Assembly (NCBI RefSeq): GCF_001807485.1
Contig: NZ_KV789168.1
Coordinates: forward strand, 300,745-364,744
DNA: 64,000 bases
From: Corynebacterium sp. HMSC08A12
GTDB lineage: Bacteria; Actinomycetota; Actinomycetes; Mycobacteriales; Mycobacteriaceae
Direction: 5' to 3'
Shown here: positions 53,498 through 54,250 of the stretch, piece by piece
Position numbering within the stretch: position 1 is the stretch's first letter
Layout: each line of letters opens with the position of its first letter
Notes under the pieces: generated by a model
What the model saw: the letters and a program-made list of their open reading frames with translations, nothing else
The model's database searches: none
Told to the model about the DNA's origin: nothing
Position numbers and translations under genes: made by a program

Positions 53498-54250
53498 TTA
53501 CAGCGCATCCTCTCCACGCTCGCCGGTACGCACGCGGATCACCTCGTCCACCGGGGTTATCCAAATCTTTCCGTCCCCGATCTTTCCAGTGCAGGCAGCA
53601 CTGACAATCGCGTCGACGATGCTATCCACCGAGGCGTCCGCCGCCACGATCTCTAGCTTTACCTTCGGCACAAAGTCCGCCGCGAACTCGGCGCCGGTCA
53701 ACACACCGTTGTCCTTCGACAGCAGCGCCAAGCCCACCGTTCCCCACAGCCCTGCGGCCAGGTGTACACCCACGACGTCGAGGGAGTCGTCGTAGCCGAA
53801 ACGGTACTTGAGACCGATTGCCATGCAGGCGATGACGCCACCTATGAATCCAATGACGATGGAAGTTAGGGGCGTCAACGTTCCAGCCGCCGGGGTGATC
53901 GTAACCAGACCTGCCACGGCGCCAGACGCGGCACCCAGAGAGGTAGCGGCGCGGTCGCGGATAGTTTCACAGAGCATCCAGCCGAGCATCGCGGCCGCGG
54001 TAGCGACCATGGTGTTAACCCAGGCCAGACCAGCCATACCATCGGCGGCGAAGGCGGAGCCGCCGTTGAACCCGTACCAACCGAACCACAACAGTGCGGC
54101 ACCGAGCATCACCATCGGCAGATTGTGCGGGCGCCCCACCTTGGAGGGGAAGCCAGCGCGCTTGCCAACGAGCAGAGCCAGAACCAGCGACGCGCTGATG
54201 AGCATCCAAGCCGAATTTCCGGAGGTCAGTACAAGTTGATCTGGGGTCAT
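53498..54250 (-). CDS. Amt-PII chimera: remains of amtB and glnK fused in frame
   Basis: A 250-codon open frame made of three pieces. Residues 1-24 match the first helix of an ammonium channel ([16 protein letters not shown]). Residues 25-185 match the middle of AmtB (LLVGKRAGF, then [20 protein letters not shown], and [14 protein letters not shown] with the second pore His, residue 163), while the region with the first pore His is gone. Residues 186-250 match the C-terminal half of a PII protein ([32 protein letters not shown]), lacking the T-loop. In C. glutamicum amtB-glnK-glnD lies between ftsY and ffh. Most likely a deletion product; whether it works is unknown. Confidence 0.85.

Follow-up and report, generated by a model that had tools for sequence, protein, structure and literature searches.

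An open reading frame that carries parts of both an ammonium channel and a PII signalling protein could be a working fusion protein or the remainder of a deletion, and the amtB-glnK locus of Corynebacterium sp. HMSC08A12 (genome G000 below) raises this question. The frame lies in a window of 64,000 nucleotides, by which we mean the whole stretch of DNA that was analysed. The initial annotation had described it as amtB and glnK collapsed into one 250-codon chimera with two in-frame joins. Pfam searches and alignment to four related genomes, G054, G076, G125 and G126 (with G000, the clade), confirmed the chimera and both joins, and the parts of the locus are as follows.

53498–54250, minus strand: amtB′-′amtB′-′glnK chimeric frame, very probably a deletion remnant; 250 codons; the only Amt and PII match of the genome at E ≤ 0.001
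54185–54250, minus strand: amtB codons 1–22, the start of helix I; DNA identical to the intact amtB of G054, G076 and G125
54183–54189, minus strand: join A, where 549 bp are deleted in frame, with CGCTGGT shared, from base-level alignment
53696–54184, minus strand: middle of amtB, spanning the last part of helix V through helix X and matching G054 at 158 of 160 aligned residues
53693–53698 (approximate), minus strand: join B, from amtB after helix X into glnK at about residue 48, with few bases shared (ACCG), from alignment
53498–53695, minus strand: C-terminal part of glnK from about residue 48, with Phe at position 51, stop codon included
54251–54453, minus strand: retained upstream region of amtB
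51784–53382, minus strand: ffh, the downstream neighbour anchoring synteny, in the same place in G054, G076, G125 and G126
54454–55923, minus strand: ftsY, the upstream neighbour anchoring synteny, in the same place in the same four genomes

Pfam assigned residues 20–186 of the chimera to Ammonium_transp (profile positions 163–332 of 399, E 7.8e-51) and residues 188–244 to P-II (profile positions 47–102 of 102, E 1.2e-12), so that the PII match expected after residue 186 is present. The glnK part is identical at 62–63 of 64 residues to the intact GlnKs of G054, G076 and G125. Five amt and P-II models of NCBIfam also matched, all below their cut-offs, as expected because the pieces are fragments. 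A comparison with the PDB again gave Amt and PII matches and nothing further, and an Rfam scan of the whole 64-kb window gave no matches. Elsewhere in the G000 draft assembly (2,214,227 bases in 30 contigs, 99.91% complete) the whole-genome search gave no further Amt or PII match at E ≤ 0.001; the search of the genome for intact amtB, glnK, glnD and amtR, suggested with the initial annotation, found none of the four.

Comparison of the locus among relatives, which had also been proposed, was informative. Between ftsY and ffh, the genomes G054, G076 and G125 have an intact amtB (460–468 aa) followed by an intact glnK (112 aa), with about 94% identity to G000 over 6.3–6.7 kb on the ffh side and 88–94% on the ftsY side. 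In base-level alignments, point changes and two gaps distinguish the G000 frame from the intact pairs. Gap A, inside amtB, measures 549 bp (183 codons) and has CGCTGGT on both sides; the sequence lost there runs from the end of helix I through most of helix V and includes the first pore histidine. Gap B runs from amtB into glnK and is 416 bp relative to G054 and G076 but 440 bp relative to G125, because the AmtB tail of G125 is longer. Both joins are in frame, gap A preserving the amtB frame and gap B passing from the amtB frame to the glnK frame; by simple arithmetic, which is not a test, the chance that both deletions leave the frame open is about 1 in 9. The nearest neighbour of G000 is G076 according to ffh and G125 according to ftsY, and because these flanking genes disagree no species tree was fixed.

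The anatomy of the predicted product bears on what it could do. The first pore histidine (in GTVVHIS of G054) is deleted, as the annotation had it, and the second (VVGVHLAAG) is kept at chimera residue 163; we take the twin pore histidines to lie in helices V and X. The N-terminal piece is of amtB origin as described, yet it is only the first half of helix I, spliced onto the end of helix V, and helices VI–X follow. Similarly, the T-loop of PII is lost as far as about residue 47, although GAEF (residues 48–51) remains. The chimera thus has neither the complete 11-helix Amt fold, of which it covers profile positions 163–332 of 399 only, nor the twin histidines of an Amt/Rh channel, nor a complete PII fold of about 112 residues with a T-loop, as residues 1 to about 47 are missing. 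It is not a PII protein of the adenylylated type of Actinobacteria, with Tyr51 and GlnD. Its pieces line up, in order, with the intact ancestral arrangement of this locus apart from deletions, as is expected of a deletion remnant.

Hydropathy analysis detected the hybrid helix and helices VII–X, plus a weak peak at 201–219 inside the PII part; helix VI, which the same analysis missed in intact AmtB, was placed by alignment. Amt proteins have their N-terminus outside and their C-terminus inside the cell. They are described in PMC5764959 as two pseudosymmetric five-helix groups plus a clamp helix XI. From this order and topology, helices I and V are parallel and the chain is predicted to emerge from helix X at the outer side of the membrane. 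This would place the PII fragment in the extracellular space, where it would have no ATP or 2-oxoglutarate to detect. We infer from these features that neither channel nor PII function should be expected of the product. We considered a functional Amt-PII fusion sensor, in which an intact cytoplasmic effector would come after an intact Amt, and rejected it on anatomical grounds: both domains are truncated, and the PII part follows helix X, whose exit is predicted to be on the outer face.

Ammonium assimilation may still be possible in G000. A frame of 462 aa at 49436–50824 is, by its sequence, a putative glutamate dehydrogenase, and a glutamate synthase frame of 1536 aa was found in all five clade genomes, with only weak matches in the four nearest outgroup genomes examined. 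The glutamate synthase match in G000 is at G000:C28:21259-22362.

We then counted substitutions private to G000 in the retained codons. There were 12 synonymous and 2 nonsynonymous changes, where neutrality predicts 33.8 nonsynonymous; this count leaves out the junction codons 23, 24 and 184–186 and the changes shared with G126, and counting the F-to-L change of codon 184, which lies at join B, would raise the nonsynonymous total to three. On branches leading to intact genes the synonymous to nonsynonymous counts were 15:0 (G125) and 10:1 (G054). With 2 changes, the 95% upper bound on a neutral phase after the deletions is about 19% of the branch. The few nonsynonymous changes point either to recent deletions or to constraint on the chimera, and the counts, which come from one genome of the species, fit both; the anatomy speaks for decay. 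Several dN/dS comparisons were discarded: those in which unrelated frames had been paired because the stretches compared lacked the orthologue (G057 for ftsY, gdhA and the 1211-aa frame; G054 and G076 for the 1211-aa frame) and those of the middle of amt in G126, where codons were misaligned at a deletion junction. The initial annotation had left it open whether the intact frame was due to chance, recent or kept for some use; chance is affordable at about the value given above and the counts allow a recent deletion. Apart from the open frame and the low nonsynonymous change, nothing speaks positively for a use.

The region around the amtB start is nearly invariant in the five clade genomes. 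Within 54186–54310, only 4 of the last 60 columns before the start and 1 of the first 65 coding columns vary, compared with 31 of 162 columns farther upstream, and this near-invariance extends to both clade genomes with a broken gene. The leader also contains a palindrome, CAGCAC-TT-GTGCTG on the plus strand, at window positions 54276–54289.

The second broken gene of the clade is that of G126, which has 92.5% identity to G000 over 6.7 kb and has decayed separately. Its amtB deletion differs from that of G000: AmtB codons 1 to 39 are kept, part of which are lost in G000, and about codons 206–253, which G000 retains, are missing. Its amtB start has changed from ATG to ATA and a frameshift precedes the PII remnant. 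Join A is not common to the two genomes; a second deletion in G126 spans the place of join B, so that join B may be common to both.

Across the genus, amtB is broken in at least 6 of 151 genomes (G000, G017, G103, G113, G126 and G140), a lower bound as N-terminally short Amt matches in G012 and G106 were left out; G075 was excluded because its glnK runs off the contig end. G103, which belongs to another species, has Amt 3–91 and GlnK 24–64 in one frame, followed by a frameshift (L154, 5601–6108), and this genome with its own amtB′-′glnK collapse still has AmtR. An Amt match was found in 103 of the 151 genomes and none at E ≤ 0.001 in the other 48. PII matches were present in 101, strong GlnD matches (E 1e-83 or better) in 70, not counting G114 with a partial match at a contig start, and there were 88 strong AmtR matches, excluding two weak ones (G030 and G079). 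Twenty-one genomes have glnK, glnD and AmtR without an Amt match, and 23 have Amt but no PII, strong GlnD or strong AmtR match, so that parts of the circuit have been lost in different combinations.

When the chimera was searched against 242 genomes of the genus (E ≤ 1e-35), all of the matches listed from outside G000 started at residue 18 or later and, among them, only those of G054, G076 and G125 exceeded 79% identity. A few of the listed matches, in long Amt frames, extend to residues 235–249. PII matches also occur in unusually long open frames in G018:C45 (554 aa) and G061:C36 (571 aa).

The absence of glnD had been noted at the very locus where C. glutamicum carries it, and we asked what remains of the control circuit in the clade. 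In C. glutamicum, as described in PMC3612183, GlnK is adenylylated at Tyr51 by GlnD, and modified GlnK leaves AmtB and binds AmtR. PF08335 matches in the five clade genomes were confined to one frame of 1027–1121 aa with two copies of the domain, read here as GlnE. The outgroups G057, G012, G100 and G130 have an additional PF08335 frame of 700–716 aa beside glnK, which is GlnD. The GlnD model TIGR01693 gave 4e-93 or better in these four outgroups and only weak matches in the clade (best 3.7e-9 in G126 and 1.6e-8 in G000). GlnD was thus not found by either search in G000, G054, G076, G125 or G126. A query protein identified as AmtR by comparison with solved structures matched at 6.2e-90 or better in the four outgroups and no better than 7.1e-10 in the clade, where AmtR was therefore not found with this direct query; none of the 12 TetR_N matches of G000 was AmtR, as judged by eye and then by the same query.

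The AmtR box is given as tttCTATN6AtAGat/aA in PMC2723105, and we scanned for its core in 250 bp upstream of amtB in outgroup loci, dropping L008 (G012) where the amtB N-terminus was unmatched, and in 200 bp in G000 and G054 as the clade members. An exact core was present in 17 of 25 outgroup loci, and allowing one mismatch raised this to 24 of 25; an exact 8-base core is expected about 0.004 times per 250 bp (by arithmetic, with no shuffled control). Within its 200 bp, G000 had nothing better than two mismatches and G054 nothing within two.

The residue that GlnD modifies has changed as well. The chimera has Phe at residue 51, as do the intact GlnKs of G054, G076 and G125. In genomes with a strong GlnD match, 72 of 74 GlnK copies have Tyr at this position, the exceptions being second copies in G104 and G006; without such a match the figure is 20 of 28 (loci L157–L258; Fisher p 4e-4 for Tyr51 against GlnD presence, uncorrected for relatedness). 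The eight replacements are Phe, Ile or Ala, three of them being the Phe of G054, G076 and G125, and one belongs to G146, a divergent gapped PII-like sequence, without which the count is 7 of 27.

Because relatives whose amtB and glnK are intact are likewise missing GlnD, AmtR, Tyr51 and, in G054, the box, the loss of these parts most simply predates both deletions. The absence of glnD, correctly noted for G000, is not part of the amtB-glnK deletion event, since GlnD was likewise unfound in the relatives that keep the pair. The idea of a single event removing amtB-glnK-glnD control is therefore not supported.

We consider it very probable that the chimera is a young deletion remnant that is open by chance and serves neither as a channel nor as a PII protein. 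Its ancestor would have been an amtB-glnK pair that no longer had glnD, AmtR or an adenylylated Tyr51; deletions of 549 bp and 416 bp at short shared sequences would then have cut this pair and, by chance, not closed the frame. Any product of the frame would consist of a hybrid I/V helix and helices VI–X, lacking the first pore histidine and clamp helix XI, with the PII fragment from about residue 48 on the outer membrane face; it would neither conduct ammonium nor sense 2-oxoglutarate or ATP. Ammonium would reach the cytoplasm by diffusion, for assimilation through GDH or GS/GOGAT. The fully open frame, the unchanged start region and the few nonsynonymous private changes count against this reading, and the same three features speak for a protein that is expressed and maintained in a new role, perhaps as a membrane protein mixing into other complexes or as an outward-facing PII fragment. 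Such a protein would have to work without the first pore histidine, helices II–IV, helix XI and PII residues 1 to about 47, with a PII part predicted to be extracellular and with no intact Amt or PII partner found in G000. The close genome G126 decayed without keeping a frame, and the substitution pattern is equally expected if the deletions fell within the last fifth or so of the branch. We regard a maintained role as very improbable, and no less so the specific proposal that the chimera is translated and that selection has preserved it as a novel membrane protein arising from two in-frame deletions; if true, a channel and its own regulator would have collapsed into a new gene.

An error in the draft of 30 contigs, with an intact amtB and glnK in the real genome, is extremely improbable. 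The joins lie inside a contig of 402 kb, with about 47 kb between them and the nearer contig end; the shared sequences there measure only 7 bp and about 4 bp, which makes a collapsed repeat in the assembly unlikely; the stretch between the joins carries substitutions private to G000; and G126 has decayed separately at the same locus. The relatives support deletion of an ancestral pair, rather than an assembly artefact, as the probable origin of the frame. Nor is it at all likely that this deletion was the event that disabled nitrogen control. The pair was the last Amt and PII of the genome, but GlnD, AmtR and Tyr51 were already missing in the relatives with an intact pair and the box was missing in G054, the one intact relative scanned, so only channel uptake and binding by unmodified PII were left to lose.

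Read as a deletion remnant, the locus would be a record of the stepwise dismantling of a bacterial nitrogen-control circuit, in which AmtR, GlnD, the operator and the modified tyrosine went missing first and the channel and its PII partner were then deleted separately in close species. Decay at amtB-glnK is an ordinary process. The locus is also a caution against assuming that a fusion protein is functional because its frame is open and two Pfam domains match significantly.

Our literature search found no system closer than the three that follow. The amtB-glnK-glnD operon of C. glutamicum, as described in PMC3612183, has the same gene order and homologous pieces, and in the outgroup G057 the three genes likewise stand in a row beside ffh. 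Unlike that operon, the G000 locus is truncated and joined, and no GlnD, AmtR or good AmtR box was found with it. Ks-Amt5, in which PMC5764959 describes an Amt fused to a histidine kinase, is similar in having Amt and signalling-protein sequence in one frame. According to the same source, the 11-helix Amt of Ks-Amt5 is complete and its kinase cytoplasmic, whereas the chimera has lost half of helix I to helix V, and helix XI, and its PII fragment is predicted on the outer face. C. jeikeium resembles G000 in the absence of AmtR (PMC1180825); the excerpt of that source reports the absence of the regulator alone, whereas G000 also has an amtB-glnK remnant that would record the later steps.
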